Origin: Antedon mediterranea
Lineage: Eukaryota; Echinodermata; Crinoidea; Comatulida; Antedonidae
Direction: 5' to 3'
NCBI RefSeq assembly: GCF_964355755.1
Contig: NC_092670.1
Span: forward strand, 35,513,795 to 35,577,794
Length of the DNA stretch: 64,000 bases
Under the pieces are notes generated by a model. It made no database searches, was not told the DNA's origin, and worked only from the letters and a program-made list of their open reading frames with translations. The translations under genes were made by a program, and so were the position numbers. Positions 11,701 through 62,533 of the stretch are shown here, one piece after another; the first letter of the stretch is position 1; the number at the start of each line of letters is the position of its first letter.

Positions 11701-14700
11701 TAGTGCTCATGGTCGTTAGTTCCCCACTTTGGCTTATTTGAGTGCACAAGTTTAATACCTGCTGTCGCATAAGCTACCTTTTATTTACGTACTCTGAATA
11801 ATGTGCCTTAGCTGAAGTGTACATCAACACTCGCTTAGCCCACATCTATTCTATACCAGTACTGTGCAACTACTAATCTAAACCTGTGGTATAACATTCT
11901 ATCCTGCTAATTTGCATAACAAGTGGTACCGTGTGCGCAGGTGAGCATCCAATCAGAGACTGCCATTTGTTACATACATACAGAAAAGTGTTCTACACTA
12001 ATTAACTTGTATTGTAACAAGGGTGTAATGTAACTGAAAAACATAAATCTATTTTGTAGAACTTATTTTCTACCCATTACATTTTCTTACGGTTATTATA
12101 CAAAAATCTGTTTACAGGCCGTATGTTGTAGTGATGGTCTCCATTGCTGTCCAAGTGGCTACACATGTGATGTCTCGGCAGGCACCTGTGCAAAGGGTGC
12201 ACTCACTGTACCATGGCTAGAAAAAACTGAAGCCAAGTCTGTTATGCTTGAGAATGTCCAGTGCGATTCAACCCATTACTGTCCAGATGGCTCAACTTGT
12301 TGTAAACTAAGCAGTGGTCAGTATGGTTGCTGTCCAATTCCAAATGTAAGTTTATATTTTCATCTTCTCGCATCAAACATTTATTTCTTCAAATTATAAT
12401 ATAAAATCGTGAGTAAGAGTACATCAAATTGAGATAAATCCTTTATCAATAGTTTTTGTGAAATGTAATATTCATTTACTGTCTTTGTTTCAGGCTGTCT
12501 GTTGCAGTGATGGTCAGCATTGCTGTCCAAGTGGCTACACATGTGATGTCTCAGGAGGCACTTGTACAAGAGGTGCCCTCACTGTACCGTGGTTAGAAAA
12601 GACTGAAGCAAGATCTACTACTTTGGAATCTGTAGTATGTCCAGATGGTCAGTCTCAATGTCCAGATGGCAATACTTGTTGTAAACTAAGCAGTGGTCAA
12701 TATGGATGCTGTCCACTTCAAAGCGTAAGATAACTTAGCATTTTTAAATTAAAACTTATTCAATACAATTTTCAATTGTTGCAAGACTGTTAGTATACGT
12801 TAATTTGTATTTTTAGGCCATATGTTGTAGTGATGGTCTCCATTGCTGTCCAAGTGGCTACACATGTGATGTCTCGGCAGGCACCTGTACAAAGGGTGCA
12901 CTGACGGTCCCATGGCTAGAAAAAACTGAAGCCAAATCTATTAAACTTGAAGCCGTTATGTGTCCTGATGGTCAGTCTCAGTGTCCAGATGGCAATACCT
13001 GTTGTAAACTAAGCAGTGGTCAATATGGATGCTGTCCACTTCAAAGCGTAAGATAACTTAGCATTTTTAAATTAAAACTTATTCAATACAATTTTCAATT
13101 GTTGCAAGACTGTTAGTATACGTTAATTTGTATTTTTAGGCCGTATGTTGTAGTGATGGTCTCCATTGCTGTCCAAGTGGCTACACATGTGATGTCTCGG
13201 CAGGCACCTGTGCAAAGGGTGCACTCACTGTACCTTGGGTAGAAAAAACTGAAGCCAAATCTATTAAACTTGAAGCCGTTATGTGTCCTGATGGTCAGTC
13301 GCAATGTCCAGATGGCAATACCTGTTGTAAACTAAGCAGTGGTCAATATGGATGCTGTCCACTTCAAAGCGTAAGATAACTTAGCATTTTTAAATTAAAA
13401 CTTATTCAATACAATTTTCAATTGTTGTAAGACTGTTAGTTATGTTAATTTGTATTTTTAGGCCGTATGTTGTAGTGATGGTCTCCATTGCTGTCCAAGT
13501 GGCTACACATGTGATGTCTCAGCAGGCACCTGTGCAAAGGGTGCACTCACTGTACCTTGGGTAGAAAAAACTGAAGCCAAATCTATTAAACTTGAAGCCG
13601 TTATGTGTCCTGATGGTCAGTCGCAATGTCCAGATGGCAATACTTGTTGTAAACTAAGCAGTGGTCAATATGGATGCTGTCCACTTCAAAGCGTAAGATA
13701 ACTTAGCATTTTTAAATTAAAACTTATTCAATACAATTTTCAATAGACACGTTTCGCGCTCGCGACCAATCAGAAATAGTGGGTATAGATTTGTAAACAA
13801 ACCGAACACCTCTCGCCTAGTGCGTGTTGAAGAATAGCGAAATGGCGACTGCCGAGTGCTTTTGTTGCAAGGTACATCATAAATGTTGCATATGTTGGAT
13901 AAATCGTGAATTTAACTACACAAAATCACTGAATAATATTCCTGTTTTTAATTTTCAAACACTTGCTGAGTGGTTTGCGTCGGCTCCGAAGGATAGTGGC
14001 GCAAAATCTTGGAAATTTTTTAAGGACAGTACGTCCACGATGTGCTCGTGGCTCTCCGCCCGCCCGGTGGCGTTGCCTGATGCGGTACTTCGTCTACTAA
14101 GCCTAGGAGGCTTGGGTGTCTGTTTAAGCGCCGAAGAACATCACATAATACATGGAAGATGCAATAGGAGCATGAAGAAGAATGAAAGATAATAATTAAT
14201 ATATTTACGCAACATTTGTAAATAAAATCAACAGTTAACATGTATTAAATGCACTGATGTAGTGTAATACTAATAATATATATATGTGTCAAACCAAAAA
14301 TGACAATACATAAATAAAGTCGATGATTCCGAACCAAATGCCCAAATAATTCTACAGTGAATATAAAACATAAGTTTAGAAAATAAATAACATCCTTACC
14401 ATGCCATTCCATCAAAAGGCTAGTTTTGACGATTGCTTTTTAAGATGATCATCTCTCAGTTCTCCCATGCTTTAACATACCTCTCGCTGTGTTTGTTTAC
14501 CATTGTATACCCACTAAAAGGTCAAACTGACGGTGACCTCGCGACCGCGAAACGTGTCTATTGTTGCAAGACTGTTAGTATACGTTAATTTGTATTTTTA
14601 GGCCGTATGTTGTAGTGATGGTCTCCATTGTTGTCCAAGTGGCTACACATGTGATGTCTCAGCAGGCACCTGTGCAAAGGGTGCACTCACTGTACCTTGG

Positions 14701-22960: not shown

Positions 22961-25900
22961 TCATATTCGTTGGCATCGCATGTGATCGTAGTCAGTCCAA
23001 AATCGCCATGCAAATTCTTCCCTATAAAAAAGATAATAAGAGTGAAATAATATGTAGGAAAGCAGAAAAAAATATCATAAAAAACGATGCATTAAGTTTG
23101 TTAGGGAGCATATAGAAGGCATATGAAATAACCCAACTCTTAAACTTGGTTCCCACTAGCATCCAACGCCAGGACGCAAGCGAATTGACCAATCAAAGCG
23201 ATGGATCATTCGGACCGTTCCTTGTGATTGGTCAATTCGCTTGCGTTGCGGCTTACGTCCTTGTGTTGCGTTATAGTGGGAACCAAGCTTTAGTATGTAC
23301 TGTAGGCGTATGCACTTGAATACGTAAACGCGGACTACTGGATACTCCCCATACAGGGGGTGAAGGTGAGGGTTTTATTGCAATCTAGTAGGCCTAATAC
23401 TAATAGAGATTTCAGTCAACTCACTCTCTTAGTGGACGTGTTATCCTGCAGACATGACCGTCCTCACAGGGACAGATACTATCTATCGTATAATCTACAC
23501 CTCCTTGTGGTACAAAACACTTTGTGTTCACTTTCAACTTCATTTTGCAGATTGATTCGCCGTGCTGTTTGGCACAGCACATATTGCTTCCACAGTCTTT
23601 ATCATTCTTGCACCTTGCCCCTGAAACACACGAAAACAATTAGGAATAAGTTTCAATCTAAAAAATAAAAACATTGCGGATCGGAAAATACGTCTACATC
23701 TTCTTGCACCTATTTATGTTTGCAAAAATAACTATGAAAAAACAGGTCACGAATATTAAACGTCATAAAAATATGAATAACTATATACAATTATTATGTC
23801 TTTCTATAACATTAAATGAATTTAAAGTTGGCCTTGTTAGCTGTACATGCTTACATCTTCTGTTATAGACATAGACATAGACAATTTTAAAATACGATAG
23901 TGTGTCTTTTAATGTTCTGTTCTGTATGAGTGAATGTATATGGTTAGTATCCAAACAGAACCAACAGATTAGTATTTGTGCTTTTTGTAAATGTGTGTAA
24001 AGATCTGTCTACACTATCAAACTAGTTTGACAAAAAAAAGTGTGATGTGGCCAAGTATGGTAGTGATATACCCAAATATGGTAGTGATATGACATCATCA
24101 TGTCCATGGGCACATCACATATTTTTGTCAAGTTTGATAGTGTAGACAGAGCTTTAGATGTTATACGGCCGGCTTTTTTGTGCGCATACTCATCATTTAC
24201 ATTAAATAAAATCATAGGCCGTGAGCCTTGGGAATAATGTCGACTCCAACATAGGCCGTGAGCCTTGGGAATAATGTCGACTCCAACATAGGCCGTGAGC
24301 CTTGGGAATAATGTCGACTCCAACATAGGCCGTGAGCCTTGGGAATAATGTCGACTCCAACATAGGCCGTGAGCCTTGGGAATAATGTCGACTCCAACAT
24401 AGGCCGTGAGCCTTGGGAATAATGTCGACTCCAACATAGGCCGTGAGCCTTGGGAATAATGTCGACATCATCGCAGCTTGATTGTAAAAAGAATAGCAGC
24501 TTGCATCTGCTAAAGGCACCTTTGGAATGTTCGATCAAATCAGATGTCGTATTAAATAATAAAACAATGGCACATAATGTGGACAATGAGGATTTTACCA
24601 AGATTCGAGGAATCTTACTCTTCCTAGATTTATCATTGAAATTAAAGAAATTAACTTAACAATTAACAATAATTAAAGCAATCTTAATATAGGCCTACTT
24701 TATACAATTTGAATTTATTTTAATATCTTGCAATATCACAGCAATATTTCGTTGTTTTCTCATCTCACCCGACATGATTATAAACTAGATATAGGCCTAC
24801 TATGGACATGTACATTTGTTGTGTAGCGGTATTATTAAACTACTGTAAGTTCGAAATGACATATAGGCCTAGAAGAGTGGTGTTTTCACCTATCAATTGC
24901 AAAAACAACGTATTATTTTTGTGAAAGAATCGGACAGTCTTGCAAACAACAATTACCTAAATATGACACGACACATTTAAAAAGCCATTCCTTTCTGAAG
25001 AGTTGTAATGAAATTCGTTCTGTATGATTAACGATTGTAGATAAATACTCAAAGATAGAAAGACATGGTTTTAATGGTGATTTATTGTACCAGGCTGACT
25101 GGTCTCATAACTCACAATACAATTTCGATGGTTTAACCTTGCTTTTATTATACTAGCCTTTTAAAGTCGAGGAGTAAATCTGACAGAAATGTATGAGATC
25201 GGCTTTAAATTAGACGTCAATCAAAGTGATTGGCGGGGAGGAATGCCTGAGCCAGTTTGAGGTCTTGTCAGAGTTGTGTGTGATCCAACGAATAGATTAA
25301 ATAGCAAAATACATTTCTTTTTTTTTAAATCTTTAATTTAAATATAGATATTTTAGCTCTAAAGGAATATCTTTGCTTTTGAGTAAATATTAAGTGTTTG
25401 TTCCGTAGTGTAATAGGTTTTGGCAACATTTTCTAACTTGATCTGTGGTAATATAGGCAGACAATAATATCATTTTAATACCGGTATTACCCCTGGCAAG
25501 CTATCCAATTTCTTTACAAAATAATCTATCTGCATAATGCTCAATCATAATAGAGCGATACAGTAACATTTATAAAGGTTACTATCTTCTTTTTCCTCTA
25601 TATTATTTAGTTTATCCTTTGCTATTATTTTAATATATTTTGGTAACGTTTTACTTGAATCTAGCCCTATATTTACAATTCAGTCTGAATGGAGTGTTCT
25701 AAATTAGTAATACATAGAGTAGTTTCTTGTTCTTAATGCACAATGGAACAGTCTTAATAGGCCTACAACATAATATCGATCGAATGCTACCGGTTTGAAT
25801 CCGTTTTAATTACAATTGTCCTAAACTTCCTAACTAATTCTCCATCTAAAATTAAAGGATTGAAATCATGTCACGTGATCTCAGACTCATTCAATTACCA

Positions 25901-28900
25901 AAACTTATTTTATGCCAATCGTGGTAGAAAATATAGACGTATTTATAAACTCGTTAACTTATTTTGATTCCATTAATGGTTTGGGGTAATTAGTGTTGAC
26001 AGTTTTGTCTGATGAGACAAAAGGTCTTTACACGCGACACGCGCAATCCAAATCAACGTACCAACACCTAAACGGGTGACTGGCTTGACTACCACCTATA
26101 TTAAGGGTAGACCTGGATGAAAAACTGTCTTTTGTCTGACCGGAAATAAGAAGAAAAGCATGGTATTTTTTAAAGTATTGGTGGTCTAATGGTACCAAAC
26201 CGTAAGGCGCCTATTTTAAAACACCTGAATTTCACGTGTCTTCTGCTGCGCCATCTTAAAAACCCGTTAAAACACATTATAACTTTACTATAATTAATCA
26301 CGGTATATATAACATAATCATCATCGTATAATATTTATACCGTACTAATTCTTTCTTGTTTAGATTTATATAGTTCAGAATAATTAGGTAAAACCGGTTA
26401 GAATGTAGGCCCTATTGAAATGCTTGGCAAGCAAGTCCCATTACATACAATAGAAACTGGGTATCATGGACAATATTGATAATAGCGCATTCTCTAGGAA
26501 TTACGTTTGAGGTTAAAAGCTTTAGCTGTGTCTAGGCCTAGATGCAAACAACAACAACAACATAAGAAATAATGGTGATGCTACAGTAATCTGGTATTGC
26601 CACCTGTGATTTGTGTGCTGTTGGGGTGCTGTTTTCAAAGTTTTCTTTGGTAAATCTATAGAAACTTTACATGGCTATTTAGTTCTGTAGAGGAGGCTTG
26701 AAGTTTGAATAGACGAGACTTAGAATAGTGTCTCGCTTAGCACACGATGCTTTTCAGCTACCCTACTGTGTAATTAGGCTTGTCGTATTGTAGGTTTAAT
26801 GGTCAAAACAGACAGTTGTACTCGTGATTGATTGCGACCACACAGTTATATAGCAAGATGACGAGTGACAGCTAGCCATTCTTTACTACGCGGGGCCATC
26901 GGGTTGGAATTCGTCAGAAATATAACTCATCTTTTCACGTGTCATTTGCAGTTATAATAACTATTCATATTATTAATATAAGATGGTTCTTAATTAACCA
27001 CAAATTATTATTACAGATAATATAAATCGAAATATAGATGTTTAGTTTGATTAGCAATTATTGCTAAACAAAATTGTGAAATGAATTTTTTTCAATTAGC
27101 CATACTGTACTAAAATCATATAATGGTGGTCTCTCACTCAGTAATTTTGCGAATAACATTTTCTAAAATTATTACTAACGTTAATCGTTTACGAATAATG
27201 ATGATTATTTTTGTTGGAATCTTGTACGATAATTTAGAGTATTTTCAACAGTCAAAATACATGCATCATGCAAACTTTTGTAAACAATTCCACGCATGCG
27301 CAGTCTCTCTTCTCTTGATTTTTTTCGTTGCCAATGTTCGCGATATAATCATGTGAAATTAAGAAACATAACGGCTTTTTTTCCAAAATGTTTCTGTTTA
27401 AAAAGTGTATGGTTTAAAACATTGCGCCGACCGGCCTAAGCGCTTATACGTGTTATCGTTAAAAACAATTATGGTAGGGCCCAAGCCTGTCAGTCCTAAT
27501 GCGATGAACAATTGTGAACGTTTTAAATTATTGCTCTTAAACATCACTCAACACAAACACTATTATTTGTTGATGTGTCTGGTAATGGATAGTTTGTCAC
27601 GTGTATCTTTATCCAGTCTTATGATTTACAATCCGGGACATTAAAGACCCTAGATATTGCGACGTTATGCCACATAGATTTATGTTCCATCGATGACCAA
27701 AGAACACTGAAACATACAAATCATTATCTTTAATTTCTAGAATGATTGATGAGAACATTGGTTGTGATGATAGAAAGATAATAAGCTTATGTGTATTGCA
27801 TATCCCGTATGCAGTAGCTGTTCAAAATCAATAGTCTTCAGAAAATTGATTTACAATTTTGAATTGGAAAAATAATGCTTACCAACTGTTCCAGGTTTGA
27901 TTGTTTTCTGACATTTTCCAAAACGACAGTCCAGACCTTTTCGACAGTGACTATCTCGTCGGCAGAGGGCGTTTTCTAGCTTGTGATCGAGACAGTTACC
28001 ATAATGTTGATCACAGAATTTTCCGCGTCCGCACGCTTTATCGCTTCTGCAAGGAGCCTGGGAAAAATAAAACAAATTGGTTAATATTACCTCCATGATT
28101 AAGTTAAATAAATTAATTGTTTTTAATAAATCAATATTTATAATTGGTAGCAGATTGGTTCTAAAGTTACACATTGATATAATGTAAGGCCTATGATGAA
28201 ATTCCGATGCAAGAAAAACAATGCGTCTATCCTCATAACATAAATTGTTCATCAAGTTTCATTATTTTGTATAGTGACGAGTGTTCTTCCGTTTAAGAGG
28301 ACAAGCATTGTAAATTTAGAAGACGTCAGCTGTTTCTACAGTTGGGCTACGTGGGTGTTGATTCCAAATCAAATTAAAACAAAGAAATATCTAGGCCTAA
28401 TTGAATATATTTGGCACATTATGAATCATTTATCATTTTTGAAAAAGGCAGGTTCAACCAATATCGAACGTACTCGTATTATTAGCAATCTATACTCAAC
28501 AACAGTGGGCCTATGTACACTTTTATAACTTTGAATGCTGTTAGTGTTGCTTCAATAAACAAAATAGGCATAAATAAAAATATAGGCTATTATACTGTTT
28601 ATTATGTATGTATGTATTTTTTATTATCTTTTAATAAATCGAGGTTGGTTGTTTTATTCAAATCCATCATTCATTAGGCCAATTATTAACATACACAAAT
28701 GTAGTAGGCCTAATTGTTGTTTAATTAATCAAAATGAAGCATTAGAAAACGATATGGTAACATCACTAGTACTAGCTAGTATGCCTCCCTCCTATGCAAG
28801 GTTAATAAAACATTTTGCAATGATAAAAAATCACATAACATAACCTAGATGATTTATATACAAGGGTGTTATAAGCTGCTCTATGTAGAGATTTATCCGT

Positions 28901-34579: not shown

Positions 34580-36430
34580 CTAGTCTGCGTTAATGCCTTT
34601 AAACAAGGAATCTAATTGGATATCCTTGTTGGCAGGGCAGTTGTAGTAGCCGATCCCGTATGGTCGCATGTGATAAATCATGTATTCTAGTAAATACATA
34701 TTGTTGCGTGAAGCGTACATGTAAGAGATGGCGTAGTCGGAGCAACAATCGGGAAGCTGCAAAAACAAAAAAATACATCTTTGATCAATGTCACTAAATA
34801 TTACAAATTTTAATTCATAACAATTTAAACAAGATTTTAGGTAAATTTGTGAAGTGAAAAATAAGAAGTTAAATTAAGCACTTGGTATTTTGTTATAATT
34901 TTTTCCATAAATTATCTTTTCAGATATTCTTTCTGTTGAATGTTCAATTAGGAACTATGGACAGCTACTAGGATTACAATTCATATTAAGGAAAGGAAAT
35001 GACTCGGTAAAAATAGTAAATTTTGTTCATGATGATATAATTCTTTTTTTTCCATATACATCCAGTAGTGAGTACAAACTCAACAATTACAGGCTGGATA
35101 AATTATTTTATTTAAAAATTTATCGTGCAATTCAGTCTTAGGGAGTGGAGTTGAAAGATTTGTGAGTTACAACCATAGCACTAGGTCAGGATTGGAAGGC
35201 AAGCACATTAACCACCAAGCTACAGCTCCACTACAAATCTACAGCTCCACTACAATTTACATTATTCAAATGTTTTACTTAATTTTTTCTCAGTATGTTT
35301 TTATCGTTTGTAATACTGTACTGATAATGAAGCTTACTTAGTAAAAATTAAAATTTTCGATTACTGTTCTATTTAGTACCTGTAGGATTGTTCAATAATT
35401 AACTGGCATAACTTACCTTTTGACCCGGTTGCTTAATAAACCTCCAATACCACACGACAAACTTAGCACTAGTCACTGGCACTTCATGGTTTGGAATCAG
35501 CAATTGAAAACGGTTTTCACCGGTGTAATCACGGCCATCTTCACGTGGATAAACTTTGACCTTGTTAAAGCAGTTCTGTAACTCCTCATCATCATTTTGT
35601 CCATCTTTTTCAGCTTCACACAATTGAATAACCGGACTTAATTTAGTTAAACCTTCGCGACTTAACGCTATCGTAGAGGCTCTTCCTTGCTTACCGGCAA
35701 ACACCTGCCCTATGTAATCTTTAATACTAGTACTGTGCATGATTAGCATATATCGTAAATTCTCAAGAATTAAAAAAGTGTCGTACTCTACTTTAACAAT
35801 CCAATCATAATTATCGAGGTTTTGTTTTAAACACCACTGTAGACTTGATTTTAATCGATTCCAAGAATGTTGTGCCCCGTTCGGCAAACTAATTACTTCA
35901 ACATCATTTCCTGTTTTCCCTCCCGATGTTAAAATAACAAACTTATCGCAATGCTTTCCCCACGTTTTTAACTGGTACTGTGCCGTTGGCAGTTGATTCT
36001 GTGGCGTTATTGTGAAACACAAAATCCGCACTTTGGAATTTAAAATCGTTGAGTTTAATCGAGGATCGAAATCGTTTCTTTTTAAATAGTTTACAAAATG
36101 GCTATCCAATGCGGGATTTGATTTTGGCGCTCCTAGTTCACTGAGGAGTGTACCTTCCGGTTCATTCTGCTCACTAGCTTGAAAGAAGTAACTTTTCCCA
36201 TCAATTGAATATTCAACTGGAAGACTTTCATGACTTCCGGAAGGATAACCTATATTATCAACCGTATCAGCCGTAACCTTTGAACTTAGGTGGGATGATG
36301 ATGAGCCTATTGTCATAACTGGCATGTGATTCATCATGTTAACAATATCAACATACCTATTGTAAACAACGACGGAACAACAACCAACAAACAGACCAAT
36401 GAACAACGAGAACAAACCCCGTTTCTGCAT
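34580..36430 (-). CDS. C1GALT1-like: C1GALT1/Cosmc-family beta-1,3-galactosyltransferase-like protein (2 exons)
   Basis: Exons 36430-35417 and 34756-34580 join in phase 0 to give 396 residues; human C1GALT1 has 363. The product is a type II Golgi protein with a signal-anchor at residues 5-23 (GLFSLFIGLFVGCCSVVVY), a ~100-residue stem, and a GT31-type domain from about residue 130. Family landmarks are TWGKHCDKFVILTS (153-169), LENLRYML (222-229), the ALSREGL region (255-261), DEELQNC, VVWYWRF, and the C-terminal CCSDYAISY followed by LEYMIYHMRPYG. The CCSD...YH[LM]RPYG block is characteristic of C1GALT1. Core-1 synthase adds galactose to GalNAc-Ser/Thr to make the T antigen. Its DDD metal motif is replaced here by EYD (residues 215-217), so it may be an altered enzyme or a Cosmc-like chaperone. 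It diverges from the transporter gene at 38362. Confidence 0.88.
34757..35416 (-). other. Single intron of the C1GALT1-like gene, containing a SINE head
   Basis: The segment 35138-35250 is a minus-strand tRNA-derived SINE head (GAGCTGTAGCTTGGTGGTTA in reverse complement), matching 31930-32040. The rest shows no features. Confidence 0.6.
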
Positions 36431-48890: not shown

Positions 48891-50488
48891 TTACAATGGT
48901 TGGTTTTGGAACTGATTGTAACCAATTGTACTTGGATTGCTTGGCTGTACTACAATCACCCTTTCGTTGTTGTCCATCATCCGCGGTATCATCCGACAAC
49001 AAAGGCGGACACAAACTCCTACGATCGATGTGGAAAAGATGATCACGAAAAGAAAAACCCTGCGAAGGAACAAAAATGACATAGAAATGCATTAGAAAAA
49101 TGGCAGTTGTTTCAAATGTAGTTCACAGTATGCGTACAATTCCAGTTATGTTCGGGTACCGCATTTTTATAATAGATGCTTAAATATTTCTATATACCGA
49201 GAGGTGCCGCATTTACGCGATATATTTTCGTAGGCCTCATAGGTACTGTTAGTGCATAAAGTCTAGAAGTGGCTGCAGCTGCACCCCCTCGCTGTTTGGT
49301 TTCTATGCTTCTGATCCAGAGAATATGACACAGAGTAATTGTATACATACCACATAATCCCATTCTGGGAGGATGAATTTTCAGCCTTACAACACGTTTC
49401 CCAATGACAGCAATATTCGTCATCAACGCATCTAGAATAAAAAATAAAACAGGCCTAGTATTAGTACGCCGCGCCTTTAGGCAGTTATATTCAAGTGGAA
49501 GGAATAATTAGGAAACTGTATTACATTTCATTTCAAAAGACATTTATTTTCCTCCATAGCAAAACAATACAAAATAATAAACAGAAATGGTAAGGTATAT
49601 TAAAAATGAAATAGATGATTGTTGGATATACAAAAGAAAAGTGAATTTAAGAAAATTGGCTATGGAGGAAGGCATAATCCCAAGAAGATGAGGAAATCTT
49701 GTGCTGGGTATGCCTATGCAAATAAAATGGATAATTGAATAAGAGTGGAAATTAAGAGAAACAAACAAGACAAAAAAACGCACACAAAAGGAAAAAAAAA
49801 TAAAAAATAAATAAATAAAAATAAATTAAAAAAATTAATAAATAAATTGAAAAAAATAGATCAATCAAATTGTAGAATCAGAAAATAAAACTCAAAAACA
49901 GCAGCATAAATCAAATTGCGATATTCGATTGTTGTCTTTTTAATAGTTTAACATGCATTAGGTGTTGTTTTAATTTTTTGGAAAATAAAGAAATTGAAAC
50001 AGCAAAGAACATAGAAGCTAATAGTTTACTATGGCTGAAAAAAAATGGGCATGCGCAAATGGGCATGCGCAAATGGGCATGCGCAAATGGGCATGCGCAA
50101 ATACCAAAGCATGTCTGTGAGAAGAGTGTCTATGATGTATGCAGGCTGTCGTCTGTAAAACCTGTTCAATAAACAATGTTTTCGTTTGGCTGTAAAGTAT
50201 TATCGAATAATGGTCTAACAATCGTTCCTCTACGGCGAATTATTTGTAGGCCTATATAGTAGATGAAGAATATTATTTGATTATGCTGTACGACGAAGGT
50301 TCGTGGTAAATTAGACATTTTTTTTACTGGAATGTTGAGGGTGGGTAACTACGACCCTAACTTTAGAGTAATTCCTCTACCCTACGAATATGCCTATGCA
50401 AAATACAGTAGGCCTACTGTGTGTATAGTTTAGTTTATAATTATTTTTGTTCTGTACAGAGTAGAATTTGAAATAAAAACGTTGCTTG

Positions 50489-50542
<54 letters not shown>

Positions 50543-51582
50543 GATAGCTTAATCAAATCCGGTACAGAAAGAAACCAATATTTATGTATTGAATACCCGA
50601 TAGACTTTATAGACTTATAGGCCTAGACTTTATAATTTTTAGACTATATTTATCGTAACAAAAAATGTTTACTACCGACTTCACTACCAACAAAAAAAAT
50701 ATTATTTCTTATATAGGCCTATATAGAAAGAACAATAATAATAATAATGTTTTTAATTAATAATAATAATTAAAATGTTTTTTTATGAAAATGAAGAAAA
50801 CAGTACTCACGGTTTAGAAACACAGGACTGAAAAATACAAAGTAAAGTGAAAGAAAAGTAAATATACGTTTCTAACATATTCTGCATTGTAATGAAAATA
50901 ATTTTAAGCAGAAATATTTAAACGAACTATCGGCCTAATAAATTTAATGTATAACTTAATAAGTTTAATTATCTACTATTCTTACGAGTTGCAAAACACA
51001 AAATTGTTTGATTGTAGTTGGAGATTAGGGGTGTCTAGAAAACTTAAATCTAGAAAACTCAGATCTCAGAAATATCTGTTTTGAGTTTTCTAGTAAACTC
51101 TAATCTCCCTTTACAATCTTGCATAGGTACCCTTAACCTATACATGATTTTGCCGAATGAAAAAAGACCTATTAGATTCAAACGTATCGGTTATACGTGT
51201 TGTAACGCGGATACGTGTGCGTATACGTAAGTTTGCCCAAACTTCCAAGTCAAAAGTCTATGTGGCTTATTATATCATGGATGTATTCATTATTATGTTG
51301 AACCATGGAGGAAAAAATAAAGGAATAATATACGATCTGCTTGTTTATTCCAGAATTTTAAAAAAAGAAAGAAAGATAAGATAGTTTATGTTTCTAGTGC
51401 GGCATTTAACATTAAGCTTTTGATCACAGGTTTGAGAGATCTCATTTTATTTTTTCCTCCATTGTTGAAGTAAACCACGGTTCACTGGTTCCCCCCCCCC
51501 CCCCACCCCAATAAATACTTACAGGATCATCTGCAAGAACGGCTGGTAAGACAATTAACAATGTGAAACAAAGTCCAAACAT
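48891..51582 (-). CDS. Six-cysteine single-pass membrane protein, paralogue A (Shisa/CYYR1-like, 4 coding exons)
   Basis: Coding exons 51582-51523, 50827-50811 (17 nt), 49431-49351 and 49059-48891 join with matching phases (0, 2, 2) to give 108 residues. The order is signal peptide (MFGLCFTLLIVLPAVLA), six cysteines in SCVSKPCVDDEYCCHWETCC, a short linker, one transmembrane helix at about residues 53-70 (VFLFVIIFSTSIVGVCV), a juxtamembrane CC/basic stretch, and a tail ending IGYNQFQNQPL. The layout matches the single-transmembrane six-cysteine adaptor superfamily (Shisa, CYYR1, WBP1/VOPP1), whose members act as membrane adaptors. Sequence similarity to any named member is too weak for an assignment. 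A non-coding 5' exon probably ends near 52971 (TTTTAC|GTAAGT). It has the same exon structure as the gene at 56051-61810. Confidence 0.8.
49803..50545. repeat. Simple repeats in intron 2 of paralogue A
   Basis: There is an A-rich AAATAAATAAAAATAAATTA tract near 49803-49860, four copies of the 14-bp unit GGGCATGCGCAAAT at 50047-50102, and a (TGAT)n run of about 14 units at 50487-50543. Confidence 0.9.
51025..51115. mobile_element. Small copy of the GGGGTGTCTAGAAAACT palindrome
   Basis: It begins AGGGGTGTCTAGAAAACTTA, contains AAATCTAGAAAACTCAGATC, and returns as TTTTGAGTTTTCTAG. A much larger version spans 61853-62533. It lies in intron 1 of paralogue A. Confidence 0.65.
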
Positions 51583-52256
51583 AGTTAATGGTGTGAAGAT
51601 CTGAAATTATATATTTAAGACAGATTTAATTATAGGCCAACCAAATAAAGAAAAATTATACCAAGATTAGCAAGGCAATTTAAATGCTACGAACGTGTGT
51701 ATTACGTTACGTAAGTTTTCCAGAAAAGGTGCGCGCTAAGTTCGATTTGCGACTTAAATTTTATTAAAAATTCACAGATATGTTTATCATCAATCAAGTT
51801 GTAATTACGGCGTCATCGTTATATTATGATCACACTCTGAGGACCTCACATTCAGGCAGATTTGCCAGGATAAAAGTAACGTTATTTAGGTAATATCATA
51901 TTATTGTGTTCGTGTCTATATCCCACTTCATCTTTAGAGGCCTATAGAAAACATTAACCTGTCATTTAAGCTCTAATTGTTTCTTCCTGAACTTAGGCCT
52001 ACATGCTCAAATGCTTGTGTCGGAGTCCATCCTCTATAGTAGGTCTACACGCTTTATCCATTTTTACAATAAATCATAGGCCTACATTAATTAATAAAAC
52101 GTTTCTTATGATTTCTCGAATTTTAACTCAATTTATTCTCAATTGTTTTGCAATTATTAGAAAAGTGTAGGCCTAAAAACTACAGATGTTACATTCTAAT
52201 CTATGAACTTAAGTAAGATACCGTATTGTTTACAAATCATTTGTTGCATATATCTA

Positions 52257-52804
52257 GGGAGGTTTCGCAACCTTACGAATACGATAACGAAAACGGATAC
52301 GTCACACATTTGTGAAACCATGGAGGAAAAAATTAATTTATTTTTTCCTCCATGGTGAAACTTTTGAGCTATTTCATATTCGTAAAGCGTATTCATGTTG
52401 ACGAATATCACCAGTCATATTCGTAACTACAAAACGAGTATAGTTTTTGATCTATTTTGCACATTTTGTATTTCAATCAGGAATGATTCATGATTATAAT
52501 ATAATGATACTTTTATTTGAAAGTAATTTACTAAAGTAATTTACTAAAATGCCAGGTCAATTATGATAAATAGCAGTTTTTAAAGTCCTCACTCGCTTTG
52601 ATGTTACGCTAGGCCTAGGCAGCCAAGCACCAAGCAACACGTACCCGCGCTTCGCTCAAATTTACCGCAGTCATATTTTGAACGGGGCCCTCAATAATAT
52701 TTCGTTGCCATGCGAAACAGATTTTTACTGGCTTACGAAAAACGAATACGTGTGCGTGACGTATTCGTTTTCGTTATCGTATTCGTAAGGTTGCGAAAAC
52801 TCCC
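52257..52804. mobile_element. DNA transposon with ~50-bp terminal inverted repeats, TA duplication
   Basis: The left end GGGAGGTTTCGCAACCTTAC continues GAATACGATAACGAAAACG. The right end CGTTTTCGTTATCGTATTCG continues TAAGGTTGCGAAAACTCCC. TA flanks both sides (52255-52256 and 52805-52806). Inside is a perfect-looking hairpin ACCATGGAGGAAAAAATTAA with its inverted arm to 52361. No transposase is visible. Confidence 0.85.
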
Positions 52805-52970
52805 TATCGTATACTACACTATACTGTAAACACTACTGTATGCAATTTTTACTATTTTTTTTAGCAGCCCTATCTAAAATTCAAGAATACAATGAACAAA
52901 GAGAGTGTTAACGAAACATCTAGTCGAATAAATTGGGAGTTTACACCAAAAGATAGAAAAAAAACTTACG

Positions 52971-53060
52971 TAAAAGTTTTGTACAAAGTCAAGTTTGCTG
53001 AAATCACATTCGCTTGCAGTCAGCAAACATAAACAACAAATACGGTTTTGCGAAATAAAA
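52971..53060 (-). other. Probable non-coding first exon (5' UTR) of paralogue A
   Basis: On the minus strand a strong donor (TTTTAC|GTAAGT) lies 1.35 kb upstream of the first coding exon, which opens with an acceptor (AATTTCAG at 51603-51601) and 18 nt before its ATG. The upstream limit is arbitrary. Confidence 0.4.
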
Positions 53061-53453
53061 TGGACGACAGACGGTATAAGTTACAGAACGAAGTAACCGG
53101 AAATGTTTGGTTGATTCACTGGTTCAAAACGTTGGCATACAGTCAATTCAGTGAGTTTATAGTCTCCCTAAAGGGGAGAGGGTGAGGGGTTCAGCTACCG
53201 ATTATAATTTGACCTAACTTAAGACTAAGAGGGTGCACCATTTATCATCTTCTCTCAATACCGTCATCTAGTTACGTCACTGATATCTTTAAACATATTT
53301 CTGTAAAAGTATACATACCATACCCTGCTGCTGTTTTCTTCTAAATTATAAGTTAGGCTGTCGGTACTTCAATTTAATTTAATGGCAATTTTTTTAAAAA
53401 CTTGACGCTCCAAGTTTACGCACAATATTTTTATTTTATCATTTCTTTAATTA

Positions 53454-55113
53454 GGTGATCATTTAGAATAAAATGATCACCTATTGTTATTGTATCAAAT
53501 CTTTGTTATTATTGTTTCTGGGCACTATTTTGTGTAACAAATATCTAAAAAAGTTTAATGTCAATGATTACCAAAATTTCACAATGTCTTTCAAATACTG
53601 TAACTTAGTCCTAATAAGCTTTTCAACGTGATCACTCATCCGTGACGTCACGTATACGCCATTTTGTGAAATAACATTATCAATCATATCTCCATAATTC
53701 ATTATCACATATTAATGAAATTCACTATACATAAACTTCAGGTCAAGGGTAAAAATATTAGCAAATAAAAACGCGCGTGCACGTAGGGTCATGCGCGTGA
53801 AATTGCGCGTTAAAAATTTAAAAATCTCAAAATTAAGTTTTGATCAATTTAGAGCATCAATTAGGCCATTTGCGTGTTTCAAAAAATTACTGCGCAAAAA
53901 TGCGTTTTTGCGCGCGCGATTCTTAAAAAGCGTAAAAATACGATTTTTTTTGTAGAAATCGCATTCTACTCACCATCCTTAGTACATTCACCAAATTTGA
54001 GTCTGTTCCGACTTAAAATAACGCTATACGAGCATGTTATTTTTAAAAATGACAAAATGCGCACATTAATTGCATAAAAGTGCTGAAAATGATGAAAAAT
54101 AAGGCATGTTTACAATGAACGTTATTTGAGCCCGATTTTCGCACACATTTTAGTATGTGCTTGCTCAATTAATTATCTTTCTCATGAGTTGTCAACAATT
54201 TCATTTTGATGACGTCATCACGTGTAAAAACTTGAATAACGTAGGCCGTGTAATTTCACCTTCACTATATATTTGAATATTTGACAGCTCTTCAGAATTA
54301 AAGGTGACCTTGAAGATTATTACTTATTATGAAAGCTGATGAAATGTAGATATGAATTCATATAAAAATTAAGCCTATCGGATGTTGTGATGTTATCACA
54401 TGGCCAGTTGAAGTTAAAAAGTAGTTTTTAAATTTCTTTAGTCAAAGTTATACAAATTTCAAAGAGCGCGCATTGCGCTTCTACGTGTCAAATTCTCTTC
54501 CAATCCTTATATTTATTTGCTCAATTCATTATCTTTTGAAATTGTCATCTTAGAGTTTATTTTGATAATTCCATCATACCAAAAATTTAGAATATGATGT
54601 GGGTCCCGTAATTTCACCTATGCTACACTGTATATAGATATAACTGTTGGTGTGGGTGTGTGTGTGTGTGTCTGTTGATCTTTATGTGTATGTGTAGTTA
54701 TATGTTTACATTTATATATATAAGTATATAATCTTCTTACATGGCTTCCCAACATACAAGTTTCAATTGGATTTTTGTTTCCAATTGATCGATACTTTCT
54801 TGGGTTTTTTTTGCCTCTTTCATTTTGTATATAACTGAATCATCTTTTTATACATTATGACTTACTGTATTATATCTCTAAAAAAAAATATTTATTTAAA
54901 AAATATCAGAAATTATAATGTTTTTTACTCAAATATGAATGAAAGAAATAAATGTTTATTTGAATTTGAATATACAGTATATACTGTACATATTGTATAT
55001 GGCACATAATAGGTACAACTCAGCACTATAAGTGTATATGCATCATGTCATAGCATGGCGTACATCAACTTTTTACGATCGTTAATTTCATTAAAATGAT
55101 AAAAATGATCACC
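53454..55113. mobile_element. Possible long nonautonomous element with TAGGTGATCATTT ends
   Basis: The left end TTAGGTGATCATTTAGAATA is followed at once by its own inverse AAAATGATCACCTATTG. The right end AAAAATGATCACCTATAATT is the inverted form. The interior is rich in GCGCGC-type segments resembling those in the GTCG/GTCT elements, and a short (TG)n run lies at 54650-54672. No coding domain was seen. Confidence 0.45.
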
Positions 55114-55476
55114 TATAATTCTTCAAAGTGACGAATTAAATTCTAGTTCATTTTAAATCGTTTATTTTTATAGACATATATGTATATTGTATTGTTGTAA
55201 ACGTGCTAATATATCTTATTATTATTTCGTGTTTGTCGCTTATAGATAACGATATGCGATGCGTCTATTTTACTGCATTCTATGCCTATATAATATAATA
55301 TATACAGTACAAACAATCGACCAGGTGTTCGAACTTGAAAGTAAGTCTCTAGAACACCGCCACGAACTAAAGTTACACTCGGCTATCCGCAATTGTAAAT
55401 TCACACTTTCGAATAAATAATGATATGTTTTTTTCTATTGTTTATTACGTTTATTACGGTGAATTGTTAGTTACTC

Positions 55477-55745
55477 TTAAAGATGTATTGTCCTCCTGAA
55501 AAGATAATTTTACATTTTTTGTTGTTGAATATTCCATTTTAATGTCACAAACTGTAATTTAAAGCAAAAAATAGTAAAACTGGCTGCCACCCAATAGGAT
55601 TTTGGTTGAATTTAAGTGAAAACAATTTGTTTTCGCTTTTTTGTACAGAACTGATTAACTTGATTAAAACTACAAAATAACCTATTCAGAGTCTGATTTA
55701 ATTAATCTTAATTTTTCATGTTTTTGGGGGAACGTATATCTTTAA
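55477..55745. mobile_element. TTAAAGATGTATTGTC-family MITE
   Basis: It begins CTTAAAGATGTATTGTCCTC, contains CTGGCTGCCACCCAATAGGA, and ends TTTTTCATGTTTTTGGGGGA then ACGTATATCTTTAAG. The ends are inverted repeats. Confidence 0.8.
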
Positions 55746-56050
55746 GCAATAACAGCGTTATACTTCAATTTAAACAAGTCTTAATTACCAATTTTACAAC
55801 AGCTACGCATAAGTATTTGTTTCAAAAGCCCCTATACTAGACACACTGCAAGTCTACACAAAGTTGCAAAATAGAGGTAGGCCTACTATGGCCCTGAACT
55901 TAAAATGTATTAATTTAATAAGGAAATAATTAATATTAGAGGAATCGATGACCATGACAGAAACTAGGGTTGGCAGAATGTATTCATTTCTTCTGAGTTT
56001 ACAAAACATATTTTCTCAAAAGCAAAGTGCAAAAGAAATTTCTTTTCACT

Positions 56051-59000
56051 TTACACAGTTTTGTTTTCGAATTGGTTGTAACCAGGAGGTACAGTCTGAT
56101 TGGGTGACTGATGAATCACAACAACACTATCTGGTCTTCGTCTGCAACAGCAATAACAGCAAGCGATGCATCCACCGATGCTAGCCAATATTCCAAAGGT
56201 GAATAAAACCCTGGTAAGAGAAAAAAGAGTTTAAATAATGTAAGATACTCTCAGGAAACATATTTTTCCGCTGCACAAAACAATTCGGTAATTCGGCTCA
56301 GAGATCGGTAATCATCTGTTACATTATTCGGTAATTCGGCTCTGAGCTCGGTAATCAACTTTTACATTTCGGTAATTCGGTTCAAAACTCGGTAATCAAC
56401 TTGTATTCGGTAATTCGACTCAGAGCTCGGTAATAAGATTGTACACTATTCGGTAATTCGGCTTAGAGTTCGGTAATCAACTTGTAAATTTCGGTAATTC
56501 GGCTCAGAGCTCTGTAATCAACTTGAAAATTTTGGTAATTCGGCTCAGAGCTCGGTAATATGACTGTAACTTGGCTCAGAGAGCTCGGTAATTAACTTGT
56601 AAATTTCGGTAATTCGACTCAGAGCTCCGGTAATAAGATTGTACATTATTCTGTAATTCGGCTTAGAGCTCGGTAATCAACTTGTACATTTCGGTAATTC
56701 GGCTCAAAGCTCGGTAATCAACTTATGCATTAGTCGGTATTTCGGAACAGAGCTCGGTAATCAACTTGTACATTAGTTGGTATTTCGGCTCAGAGCTCGG
56801 TAATCAACTTGTACATTTTGGTAATTCGACTCAGAGCTCGGTAATCAACTTGTACATTAGTTGGTATTTCGGCTCAGAGCTCGGTAATTAACTTGTATAT
56901 TTCGGTAATTCGACTCAGAGCTCGGTAATCAACTTGTACATTAGTCGGTATTTCGGCTCAGAGCTCGGTAATCAACTTGTACCGTACATTAGTTGGTATT
57001 TCGGCTCAGAGATTGTAATCAACTTGTACATTTCGGTAATTCGCCTAAGAGCTCGGTAATCAACTTGTACATTAGTCGTTATTTCGGCTCAGAGCTCGGT
57101 AATCAACTTGTACATTTCGGTAATTCGGCTAAGAGCTCGGTAATCAACTTGTACATTAGTCGTTATTTCGGCTCAGAGCTCGGTAATCAACTTGTACATT
57201 TCGGTAATTCGGCTAAGAGCTCGGTAATCAACTTGTACATTTCGGTAATTCGGCTCAGAGCTCGGTAATCAACTTGTACATTTCGGTAATTCGACTCAGA
57301 GCTCGGTAATCAACTTGTACATTAGTTGGTATTTCGGCTCAGAGCTCGGTAATCAACTTGTACATTTCGGTCATTCGACTCAGAGCTCGGTAATCAACTT
57401 GTACATTAGTCGTTATTTCGGCTCAGAGCTCGGTAATCAACTTGTACATTTCGGTAATTCGGCTAAGAGCTCGGTAATCAACTTGTACATTTCGGTAATT
57501 CGGCTCAGAGCTCGGTAATCAACTTGTACATTAGTCGTTATTTCGGCTCAGTGCACGGTAATCAGTCAATGTAAATCATTGAATAATTTGGCCCACAGAT
57601 TATTTTTAACTTCCACATTAGTTTATTCTACATTGTTGCTTATTTCTAATTTGTTTCCCTACTGCAGCAAACGGATAAAAACAACTTTTAGTTATATTAA
57701 TATTTATTATTCTACCAGGGAAGAGTGAAATTCAATATTTCCTGATTCTACCAATAGCGTGACACCTTACGTTAAAGTTAAAAGATTATGTGATTTTGTA
57801 TCATTTAAAAATAATAAATAACATATTGAGAGAAAGATAACTGTTTTTATGAAATAATATTACAGTAGGCCTATTAGTTGAAATTATTGTGACATTTTGT
57901 TTCCTTCAATTTTGATGAACCGCTGTTTTCTTCAGTTTTTAGTCGCGTGAAAGCGACTCTATAGTTCACTATGTCGGTCGGTCGGTCGGTCTGTCTGTCG
58001 GTCCGGTATCACTATGCGTTTTATCGCTTTCTAACCTTATCTTGATATCAGTTTAATCTAGCTAAGTCAATTTTTCACAGTATATTCCTTATGGCCAGGA
58101 ATCGATGTGGTTATGTTTTCACGGTGCGCAATAAAAAATTACGCGGTCTACGCACGATTTAACGAAATCACGTTTGTAATCATATCTTCACAACCATGAA
58201 TCACAATTAAATAAAATTTGGTACTCATAAATTTCAGGGCATAAATCATCATATGGCAATACAATTACGTGCGTAGCGCATATAACGCATGCGTACGCGC
58301 GCTTAAAATTTTCAAAATTTATTTTCGATGAAATAAGAGTACGTTTTAGGCAATTGTAAGCGTTTACAAAATATTGCCATGAGTGCCAGGCTACGCACGT
58401 GTAAATTAAAAAAAATATAACTGTTTTAAAACATTTCAACATTTTTAAACATGTTCAGTAATTTCGGTCAGTTGGTAGGTTGGTCGATCGGTCGGTAAAC
58501 ACTAAGCACGCGACTGCAGCCATCTATATGGCCTTGTTAATTTGCATATACGTTTTTGCACATTTTGGCTCTGATGATTCACCTCTCCCAATCTCAGTAT
58601 AGCTTTGTTTGAGCACCAAGTACAAAGGTATATGCGAGTCAAGATTCTTATTAGTAGGAAATGAACTTGTCACTTTACCGATAATGAAAATTTATAAAAT
58701 TAATGTAAAAATTATACATACCACACCCACCACAATACTCCGTCGCCGGTGGAACAACACGTTTCATATTCGCAGCAATATTCGTTACTGAAACACCTAC
58801 AAATAATGAAACAAAAAATTATTTAAGGAGTGAACTAAATTCATTTTAATTTGGTCTTAGCTAAAAACAAAGTTATAAAAAAATGATTTACTCACTGGTT
58901 TATAAGGCATACCTGAAAAATAAAACAGTGTATTCAGCATATTATTATTCATTAATTTTTCAGAAAGACATATACAAGATATACATGAATAAATTAAAAG

Positions 59001-61810
59001 ATATTATTGTAATGTTTTGCATTGTTATATGTCACCCTTCAACTTAAGGCTAGTAGGTTATATTCAATGGAAATACCCTCTAACATTAAGGGCCTTTCAC
59101 ACCTGTTCCGGCACGGTTCCGGTCCGGCGAATCGAACACAAAATGTTTCGTTGTTACGACGCTCCACGCGGCCAAGCACCAATCGATATGCGCGTAGCCG
59201 CGTGAAAACGAAACATTGACGTTCGATTGGATTTGCCGTCGCCGGACCGGAACCGTGCCGGAGCAGGTGTGAAAGGCCCTTAACTGGCACCGACGTTAAT
59301 GGTTTTTAATTTGCACAGCGCATAATACAAATAGTCTCTATGCGCTGTGGACTCGTGTTACACTTTTCAACATGCTTCTCCCCAAGTCGCGATTTTGTTT
59401 TCGTACATAAATTGTGGAACCCCTTATGTGAAAGATAGCCGAACTATACTTCCTAAATATAACTAAACCAAACTGTGGGATTTATAGAAAATCAGTTTGT
59501 AGCGCGTACCCAATAACTACGTCAGTTGCTAACCCGGATGTTGAACGAGTGTGAATAATGTCGTAGATTGAAAAGGACTGTATAGGCCCTAAAGAAACTT
59601 AATGAATGCTAATCAGTACCAGTATGATATTTTACAACTCCCTGGTATGATGTATGTTTAGTTAGTAATGATTGTATTTTGACTGGTCGAATGTATGACA
59701 GTAGGCGTATGCTAGGGATTTGCCTGACAAACAGTGAGTTATTGAACAAATGTTAAACAATAATGTTATAATAGCCGTTCAGTCATAACGTGTAAGTTAT
59801 GACTTATATTTAATGCTTTCAGATTTGAATGAAATCTTTTTTCTGAATAAATCATCTCAAACACAGGCGAATCTCAGTGCTTATTGTTCGTTATAAAAGA
59901 TACTTTAATCCTTACACTAACCCTCTAAATAATCTCTATCTCACTATAAAATAAAAGAAGTTGTTCATGAGATTCAAACCCAATACGTCGACATTCAAAT
60001 TGTCTGGACTACACAGACGGCTCGAATTGTAGTTAGCTCAATTCTTACGCACACCTTATGGATTATGACTAAAGAATATTCATTCATATTTTGTGACTTT
60101 TCATGAGGGATCCCCAACTTATGTACGAAAAGAAATATCTCCCCCTGTGCGAGGAGGCCTATTCTCCTTGAAAACAATGTTGTTAAACATTAATTTAACA
60201 GCAAATGACATTAAATAAGCCATGGAAAGGTCACGTGCACAAGAGGCCTACCCAGGAAAGGAAACAAGTGGAAAAAGTTTACAAGAAACTGGATGTGCCA
60301 CAATGTATGCAAATCTACAGACACATTATTAATAATGACGTATACTTTCCACGAGCTTATCAGATAATCTAATAAATTCTTCGGAGCCAACAGTACCAAG
60401 GAAGAAACGTTTAACCTCTTTAATTCTCTGAGGTGTGGGGTTATTTAATTCTACGAGAAACTTGAATGTATACAACAATGCAAATCTACAGACACATTAA
60501 TGACGTGTCATGACATGACATGACATGACGAGTTTTATCAGATACCGTAATCTATATTGTTTTGACAATACTTGTAACATGACCACACAGTGTTGATTTT
60601 GACATTTTGACCCTAAACCAAAGAATATATCACCTATACAGGTACTAACTGTTGAAGCATTGAACAGAAGGAGTTTGAGGAAAGAAAGTCGGGAATATCG
60701 AGATATTTAATGAACGGAGGGAATACATAATAATAATATTAATAAAATCTTTATTTTAAAACGGAGACTCGTTCACAACAAAATGTCCTTCCACGAGGCC
60801 GTATGAAAGAAATAAAACTACAATATCACAATTATCAAACTGATAAACTAACAAGAAAATTATACATTTTTATATTAATGAATTAATATATTTTCTAGTT
60901 AGTAGATAAAATTAAAACAGAAAAGCTAAACAATTATAAAACTCACCACAACAAAACAGGCTTAAATTAAGGAGAAATTAATCTTTTGAAATTGTTTAGG
61001 GAAAGAGCATTTTTTTGTATTACATGTATATCAATTTCGTTCCAAATTTTTGCTCCACGGTAGGAAAAACTTTTTTTTATATTCTGTGTCTGGCTTTACT
61101 AGACATAGGTCATTTTTAGATCTTGTATCAGTTTGAACACACTAGCCTGGGAAACATGATCTGGAGAAACTTCTTTGGATAAGATTCAATTTCTTGTAGA
61201 TACATTATTATTGATATTATATTGTTTAAGGTTTTACAGTATTTTCATGGGGAAAATAAATACGTTAATATAAGTGTTTTCGATCATACTCATGAGTGCT
61301 GAGGATCGGAGAGGACGATCAAAGCATATTGATCCGAACGTCAAGAAACAATTCTTTTCAGCATATAAAATTGGTTGTAACCAAACGAATCTTACTATAG
61401 CAACAATCAGATGGTTCCAGATGAGTGATTTGTAGATGACACCAAATGCATAGTCAATTTAAAATTATATTGTATAATTATGCACTTTTTTTAAAATTTC
61501 ACATGGAAGTAATTTAAAGCCAGAAAAAGAATATTAGCTGGTTTAGTCAGAAAAAAAATGCAAACTTCGTTGGTAGAGGGTTTGTTTTCGTTCGAGGTTT
61601 CTGAATTTTATGTTATAGTGAGGAAATCGAATATACTATACTACTTTACTAGAACTTAATCATAATCATACTAATTAATTTTATATTCTATATATAATGT
61701 TAAATTAAAAGATCTCGATGTGATTTTAAATAAAATAAAATTAGTCTTACGTAGTCTCCAAGAACATTTGGAATACAAACAACCATAAACAATGTCAACA
61801 GTCTGAACAT
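56051..61810 (-). CDS. Six-cysteine single-pass membrane protein, paralogue B, with PPxY motif (4 coding exons)
   Basis: Coding exons 61810-61751, 58912-58896 (17 nt), 58796-58722 and 56210-56051 have phases identical to paralogue A and give 103 residues. The order is signal peptide (MFRLLTLFMVVCIPNVLG), six cysteines in VCLINQCFSNEYCCEYETCC, a Trp-rich stretch (LWWVW), a transmembrane helix (VLFTFGILASIGGCIA), a cysteine and arginine cluster (CCYCCCRRR), and a tail with VPPGYNQF. PPGY is a PPxY motif, the ligand of WW domains such as those of NEDD4-type ubiquitin ligases, as seen in WBP1 and several six-cysteine adaptors. Intron 3 holds a large minisatellite and a transposon, and intron 1 a TTAA-flanked MITE. 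An acceptor (TTTTTAG) precedes the first coding exon, so a 5' UTR exon lies upstream. Confidence 0.82.
56283..57560 (+). repeat. 41/43-bp minisatellite, about 30 copies, within intron 3 of paralogue B
   Basis: The basic unit is TTCGGTAATTCGGCTCAGAG followed by CTCGGTAATCAACTTGTACA and T. A variant starts TAGTCGGTATTTCGGCTCAG. In the right half the two variants often alternate, giving an ~84-bp super-unit. Open frames through the array are by-products. Confidence 0.95.
57937..58513 (+). mobile_element. Nonautonomous element with GTCG/GTCT microsatellite, copy 2
   Basis: It begins TTTTTAGTCGCGTGAAAGCG and continues ACTCTATAGTTCACTATGTC. The interior (TATTCCTTATGGCCAGGAAT, then TTTTCACGGTGCGCAATAAA and CATATGGCAATACAATTACG) is nearly identical to copy 1 at 43155. 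It ends AAGCACGCGACT. It lacks about 170 bp of copy 1. Confidence 0.8.
59090..59279. mobile_element. TTAA-flanked MITE with ~45-bp inverted repeats (190 bp)
   Basis: The left end GGGCCTTTCACACCTGTTCC continues GGCACGGTTCCGGTCCGGCG. The right end is its inverse with one visible mismatch. TTAA occurs on both sides (59086-59089 and 59280-59283), as for piggyBac-type transposition. It is markedly GC-richer than its surroundings and lies in intron 1 of paralogue B. Confidence 0.92.
59284..61750 (-). other. Remaining intron 1 of paralogue B
   Basis: The stretch 60485-60530 has short TGACATGACA direct repeats, and CAAATCTACAGACACATTA occurs at both 60309 and 60481. The 60740-61450 segment (TTCGTTCCAAATTTTTGCTC, then CACGGTAGGAAAAAC) has the look of a degraded retroelement 3' region. 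No coding domain was recognised. Confidence 0.35.
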
Positions 61811-61852
61811 CTTGATCAGTCTAAAAATGAATTGACGGAAGATTAAAGGGGT

Positions 61853-62533
61853 GTCTAGAAAACTTAGATCTAGAAAACTCAGATCTCAGATATATCTGAG
61901 TTTTCTAGATCTAGAAAAATGGAACTAGAAAACTCAGATCATCATTGATTGGTTGGTAGGTCATTTGGATCGTTCCATTATTAATCAGCAGGTAGGTCAT
62001 TTGAAATACTAGAAGTATTATTAAAACTGATTACTGTGTACGTTTTCTTACTAATATTATTGTAACATGTAGAAGCCGCCTACGGCTTAAATCATAAAGA
62101 AAATACAGTGCATGTTACCGTTAAAATGTAGGCATGTACGAGTTGGTGTGGGTGGGTACGAGTTGGTTGAGGTATGAGTTAGCCAAGTTGGAAATAGGTA
62201 CGAGTTATTTTGGGTACGAGTCGACCACTTCTAGTCTAGTACTGTAGGACCAGGCCTACTCTTCGCGATACATCGCGATAGCGCCCACACGTTGAGCCTT
62301 GAATTGAGTTTGCTTAGCTAGGCCTAAATGCTAAGCCTACATTTTAAAAGGTGTATAGTATTATTATTAGTAAGAAAACGTATAATACTGTGTAGTATTT
62401 AATATATGCTACCCCTCTAATAACAATGGAACGATCCATTTGATGATCTGGGTTTTCTAGTTCCATTTTGGAACTAGAAAACTCAGATATTGAGATCTGA
62501 GTTTTCTAGATCTGAGTTTTCTAGACACCCAGA
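61853..62533. mobile_element. Foldback element with ~130-bp arms, GGGGTGTCTAGAAAACT type
   Basis: The left arm runs GGGGTGTCTAGAAAACTTAG, then GGAACTAGAAAACTCAGATC, and GGATCGTTCCATTATTA. The right arm is the inverse, ending GATCTGAGTTTTCTAGACAC. TCTAGAAAACTCAGATCT is itself repeated several times within each arm. Confidence 0.8.

Follow-up and report, generated by a model that had tools for sequence, protein, structure and literature searches.

The small membrane proteins described here are best compared with the STMC6 superfamily, which Pei and Grishin are said to have defined in 2012. In the literature, STMC6 proteins are described as crossing the membrane with a single transmembrane helix (TM); a C*C*CC*CC cysteine pattern follows their signal sequence, aromatic residues are found where the chain meets the membrane, and the tail is proline-rich and contains PPxY (PMC5578492, PMC6125347, PMC6991692). 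Three relatives serve here as precedents. VOPP1 resides in late endosomes and lysosomes and has a YxxPhi motif, and its robust binding of WWOX depends on its last PPxY motif (PMC6169085). WBP1L, a palmitoylated protein, binds ligases of the NEDD4 family and regulates the ubiquitination of CXCR4 (PMC6991692), and CYYR1 binds WWP1 via PPxY and is found in late endosomes (PMC11399591).

The stretch of DNA analysed here, called the window, comprises 64,000 nucleotides of the crinoid Antedon mediterranea (NC_092670.1, positions 35,513,795 to 35,577,794 of the forward strand). A first-pass annotation had reported a tandem pair of six-cysteine membrane protein genes in it. The two genes, here A and B, appear to be genuine, but the pair is an undercount, as four such genes (A-D) are clustered and an unlinked relative (E) lies elsewhere in the genome.

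Gene models and the 17-nucleotide exon

Splicing of the proposed exons yields a protein of 108 aa for gene A (51582-48891, minus strand) and one of 103 aa for gene B (61810-56051, minus strand), reproducing the coordinates, the exon lengths of 60/17/81/169 and 60/17/75/160 nt and the phases given in the first-pass annotation. Both genes have three introns, all of them GT-AG, with phases 0, 2 and 2.

Gene A exon 1, 51523..51582, minus strand: 60 nt, signal peptide, ends in phase 0, donor gtaagt
Gene A exon 2, 50811..50827, minus strand: 17-nt microexon with cysteine 1, ends in phase 2, sole candidate between exons 1 and 3
Gene A exon 3, 49351..49431, minus strand: 81 nt, C-x5-CC-x4-CC, ends in phase 2 inside a Trp codon
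Gene A exon 4, 48891..49059, minus strand: 169 nt including the stop, TM, CC/basic juxtamembrane stretch, GYNQF tail
Gene B exon 1, 61751..61810, minus strand: 60 nt, signal peptide, ends in phase 0, donor gtaaga
Gene B exon 2, 58896..58912, minus strand: 17-nt microexon with cysteine 1, ends in phase 2, sole candidate between exons 1 and 3
Gene B exon 3, 58722..58796, minus strand: 75 nt, C-x5-CC-x4-CC, ends in phase 2 inside a Trp codon
Gene B exon 4, 56051..56210, minus strand: 160 nt including the stop, TM, CCYCCCRRR, PPGYNQF tail

The exons follow the domain plan of the proteins. The expected signal-peptide cut, as judged by eye, lies two or three residues before the end of exon 1 (the signal peptides of A-E were assessed by eye and hydropathy only), cysteines 2-6 lie on exon 3, and exon 4 holds the TM and the tail. 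The C-x4-C-x5-CC-x4-CC pattern, the one TM after the signal peptide and the GYNQF tails that had been described are all present, and in the PPGYNQF tail of B the PPxY and YxxPhi motifs overlap. Over 113 alignment columns, the two proteins are 35% identical. Several repeats lie in and around these genes: a long minisatellite of ~40-nt units, seen by eye, at about 56290-57541 of the window inside intron 3 of gene B; a short dispersed repeat at 49179-49237, within the third intron of gene A, that has at least 39 other matches in the genome (40 of 62 candidates scored); and a repeat of ~74 columns, 88% identical, found at 51022-51093 in intron 1 of gene A and at 61840-61908 just upstream of the start codon of gene B.

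The microexon would provide both cysteine 1 and the two-base frame shift that makes exon 3 readable. It had been stated that the frame breaks without it and that two cysteines are lost; the frame does break, but joining exon 1 directly to exon 3 allows only two further codons in A, and three in B, before a stop is reached, and the microexon itself holds cysteine 1 only. The 17-nt exon should be obligatory because translation stops at once without it. To count as a candidate, an exon had to be 5-79 nt and 3n+2 in length, with at least 12 of 17 upstream positions being pyrimidines, a YAG acceptor, a reading frame that stays open into exon 3, and a donor that matched GTRAGT at five or more of its six places. 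By these rules, genes A-D each have a single candidate between exons 1 and 3, namely the microexon. Dinucleotide shuffles of the same four genes (400 per gene) gave a mean of 0.05-0.41 candidates, and of 0-0.0125 when the cysteine spacing was also required, figures to be read with the caveat that the spacing was taken from A and B and that the rules were drawn up with the microexons already known (those of C and D were first spotted by eye).

The same immediate stop in A and B, together with an exon length that is not a multiple of three, would also suit a regulated on/off switch, in which inclusion gives the protein, skipping gives the stop, and splicing exerts the control. A TGC motif close upstream is a mark of neural microexons, and it occurs within the last 30 nt before the microexon in only one of the four genes (B). 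The donors are also strong (GTGAGT in A, B and C, GTAAGT in D) and the acceptor pyrimidine tracts good, which makes such a switch improbable. A described parallel is provided by the conserved small microexons of plants, which are likewise tiny, important for gene function and easily overlooked by annotation; those are at most 15 nt long, while the exons discussed here are 17-20 nt long and belong to a small family of animal membrane proteins (PMC8831610). A literature search found no paper linking a microexon with VOPP1. Since their frame depends on a 17-nt exon, animal genes such as A and B may be lost in annotation.

The cluster and its unlinked relative

Genes C and D lie 19-26 kb beyond gene B on the same strand as A and B and were found by searching with the B protein and by reading the flank, so that the A-D cluster spans ~39 kb. 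Gene E is not linked to the cluster.

Gene C, C1:35596706-35594947, minus strand: exons of 60/17/69/154 nt, including a 17-nt exon
Gene D, C1:35601440-35598505, minus strand: exons of 87/20/66/63/66/78/163 nt, including a 20-nt exon
Gene E, C1:13706865-13709469, plus strand: exons of 60/59/72/131/194 nt, 171 aa, PPPY and PPSY

The intron phases are 0, 2, 2 in A, B and C, while gene D has phase 0 and then phase 2 throughout. Gene D carries four cysteine modules, one per phase 2-2 exon, and cysteine 1 of a given module always comes from the end of the exon before; because these exons are in phase 2-2, they could be multiplied with the frame intact. The position of the introns is constant in two respects: a phase-2 intron falls in the codon directly before cysteine 2 at all eight junctions, and another falls in the Trp codon before the TM in all five genes (A-E). 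The module layout of D suggests, by inference, why an exon of 17-20 nt is enough at the start of the ectodomain, where it would serve as the "cysteine 1" end of a D-type module exon. A stretch of ~220 columns that is 71% identical occurs both downstream of B (55549-55745) and in an intron of D (C1:35599598-35599811), and is perhaps a dispersed repeat.

In gene E, an exon of 59 nt takes the place of the microexon, and the phases of 0, 2, 2, 1 match those of the cluster. A search for exons 11-40 nt in length came up empty, and the first two exons of E were then assigned by eye. Exon 2 is the last copy of a 94-bp tandem array and the only copy with a donor. The array has 5.1 copies (L014 3309-3787), five of which contain the acceptor and the start of exon 2.

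A pattern scan of the window and 39.5 kb on its high side revealed no minus-strand C-CC-CC outside A-D, and the plus-strand matches of the same scan belong to a granulin gene. Granulin-type repeats extend over many open reading frames (ORFs) on the plus strand of the window (7668-16995), with the tested ORF 12458-12733 matching Pfam Granulin at 3.2e-15. Other features of the window include an ORF on the minus strand (27851-28255) with a Dickkopf N-terminal cysteine-rich region (3.9e-09), a 343-aa minus-strand ORF (35399-36430) without a Pfam match at 0.01 that by eye resembles a type II membrane glycosyltransferase, and tandem-repeat ORFs at 24009-24601 (minus strand) that are open in three overlapping frames and are a DNA repeat rather than genes.

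Genome searches with the A, C, D and E proteins gave no further convincing member among the places looked at, and exon-by-exon protein searches of this kind may miss members, as the search with A listed neither B nor C. The rejected places include C6:21073146, a match to E (E 1.5e-4) in low-complexity Y and K runs, and C2:33219327, a match to C (0.03) which by eye resembles a fragment of a many-TM receptor. Weak matches were further obtained at C2:3978146 with the B protein and at four more places with the E protein (E 0.275-3.7).

Small proteins that change as fast as these, with A and B sharing little more than a third of their residues, could be suspected of being chance assemblies or decaying pseudogenes. 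Against this stand the common exon plan and intact frames of four genes, the single microexon candidate in each, and the conservation of the cysteines and the tail tyrosine. Selection points the same way: pN is lower than pS in 2000 of 2000 bootstraps for A-B, 2000 of 2000 for A-C and 1983 of 2000 for B-C, and the 95% ranges of pN/pS are all below 1 (0.44-0.80, 0.38-0.68 and 0.42-0.92, respectively), with synonymous sites near saturation (dS of 1.9 for A-B and 2.4 for A-C). Decay or chance is thus highly implausible, and we regard the cluster genes as real with little doubt.

Placement within the STMC6 superfamily

The first-pass annotation had assigned a Shisa/CYYR1/WBP1-type plan to genes A and B, which holds at the level of the STMC6 superfamily, while the branch can be narrowed to WBP1/VOPP1 through gene E. 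The cysteines, the TM and the N-terminal hydrophobic stretch typical of STMC6 proteins are found in A, B, C and E, and in D with four modules. The proline-rich PPxY tail is not a feature of the set as a whole, as PPxY occurs in two of the five proteins (B and E) and the tails of A-D are short.

Gene E scores 43.5 bits against Pfam WBP-1 (PF11669), over the cut-off of 28.1, with the match covering residues 39-137, i.e. exons 3-5. A profile of A-D (D in part) finds E with 44.5 bits, and against the ectodomain of E alone it still scores 16.4 bits; in both cases none of 2000 shuffles did as well. The cysteine spacing of E includes C-x12-C, a spacing that human VOPP1 also has. In direct comparison with the named families, A-D remain below the WBP-1 cut-off (A 9.7, B 10.4, C 17.4 and D 15.4 bits), and none of A-E has a listed match to Shisa_N (PF13908) or CYYR1 (PF10873) with an E of 10 or less (most of those above about 0.1 are removed by filtering). 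The Shisa_N model does exceed its threshold elsewhere in the genome, in two places, and the CYYR1 model has genome matches below its cut-off only. Two of these weak CYYR1-model matches (C4:34283859 and C4:34302669) lie 19 kb apart, and the first lacks the C-CC-CC pattern and is probably due to chance or a repeat. Sub-cut-off Pfam matches that reflect cysteine, TM or low-complexity composition were set aside for A (Enas, weak, E 0.0015), D (TMEM52, 0.0024), C (Tmemb_185A and Antimicrobial12) and E (DUF1179, 2.9e-4; TMEM51, 7.5e-4; DUF4636).

Some results count against this placement. When the genome was searched exon by exon with the WBP-1 model, four places were listed (C4:2141314, C8:3248440, C8:24735463 and C3:10438150), none of which is any of A-E, and the genome search with A returned only A's own exons. 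The WBP1-like sequence at C4:2141314 has all six cysteines on a single exon, which ends after the TG of a would-be Trp codon; the A-D profile does not recognise this exon past its cysteines and scores 4.0 bits, a value matched by 451 of 1000 shuffles with the cysteines fixed and by 19 of 1000 full shuffles. Of the remaining places, C8:3248440 reads as simple D/Y/C repeats and was discarded, and C8:24735463 is the PY-rich tail of another protein.

In their C*C*CC*CC pattern, the tryptophan just before the single TM and the tail tyrosine motif, A-D are like WBP1, VOPP1 and WBP1L (PF11669); they are unlike them in their sub-cut-off scores, their short tails, the absence of PPxY from three of the four, the 17-20-nt exon for cysteine 1 and the four modules of D. 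Shisa and CYYR1 share the superfamily plan with A-E (PMC5578492, PMC6125347) and differ in the lack of listed profile matches. Because A-D are homologous to E, an accepted WBP-1 member, and have intron positions in common with it, they fall to the WBP1/VOPP1 branch; because their scores are below the cut-off and their tails unlike those of STMC6 proteins, they are filed as divergent relatives and not as members of Pfam WBP-1. Judged by sequence, A-D thus quite probably belong with the WBP1/VOPP1 branch as divergent STMC6 proteins, and are neither Shisa nor CYYR1.

Tail motifs and possible functions

All five tails contain a YxxPhi motif (YNQF in A and B, YDQF in C, YHRF in D and YQEV in E), a motif short enough to occur by chance. 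In A-E the distance between its tyrosine and the membrane is greater than in classic lysosomal proteins. PPxY is restricted to B (PPGY) and E (PPPY and PPSY) and is absent from A, C and D. The alignment of the tail tyrosine of the cluster with the PPSY of E, which runs across a junction between two exons of E, is an inference.

From this plan a possible mechanism can be drawn. Each gene would encode a protein whose six-cysteine mini-domain (in D, four modules) lies outside the membrane and is followed by one TM, a cysteine-rich and basic juxtamembrane stretch and a short YxxPhi tail. The protein would enter the ER, where its cysteines would form disulfides to give a disulfide-capped type I membrane protein, and the juxtamembrane cysteines are perhaps palmitoylated. 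The YxxPhi tail would direct the protein to endosomes or lysosomes, along with whatever the mini-domain binds. In B and E, the PPxY motifs may allow docking of WW-domain proteins, e.g. NEDD4-family ligases, while A, C and D, being without PPxY, could be sorting-only or competing versions.

The term adaptor, used for the pair in the first-pass annotation, is therefore doubtful in the ligase-recruiting sense for A, C and D, whereas B keeps its PPxY. All cluster members might still be ordinary ligase-recruiting adaptors that use degenerate or non-canonical motifs instead of PPxY: B retains PPGY, C retains PPP upstream of the tyrosine, and the characterised relatives WBP1L and CYYR1 work in this way (PMC6991692, PMC11399591). 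With the short tails of A, C and D and the absence of PPxY from them, we consider this unlikely. The reading we favour, with somewhat more for it than against it, is that A-D and the unlinked E descend from a WBP1/VOPP1-type STMC6 gene and are YxxPhi-sorted membrane proteins with PPxY docking only in B and E. For the functional part by itself, namely that sorting was kept and ligase docking lost, the chances by analogy appear evenly balanced.

More tentatively, a local expansion may have produced, from a ligase-recruiting adaptor of the WBP1/VOPP1 type, a small "sorting-only" set of carriers or decoys, with PPxY lost in three of four genes, YxxPhi kept, an obligatory 17-20-nt exon for cysteine 1, and multiplication of the phase 2-2 exon in D. 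If so, the "sorting-only" proteins would be endosomal ligand carriers, or decoys in competition with the full adaptor. This would mean that a family of ubiquitin-ligase adaptors can diversify by retaining its sorting signal and dropping its ligase-docking site, and that a symmetric phase-2 exon permits the multiplication of its six-cysteine mini-domain.
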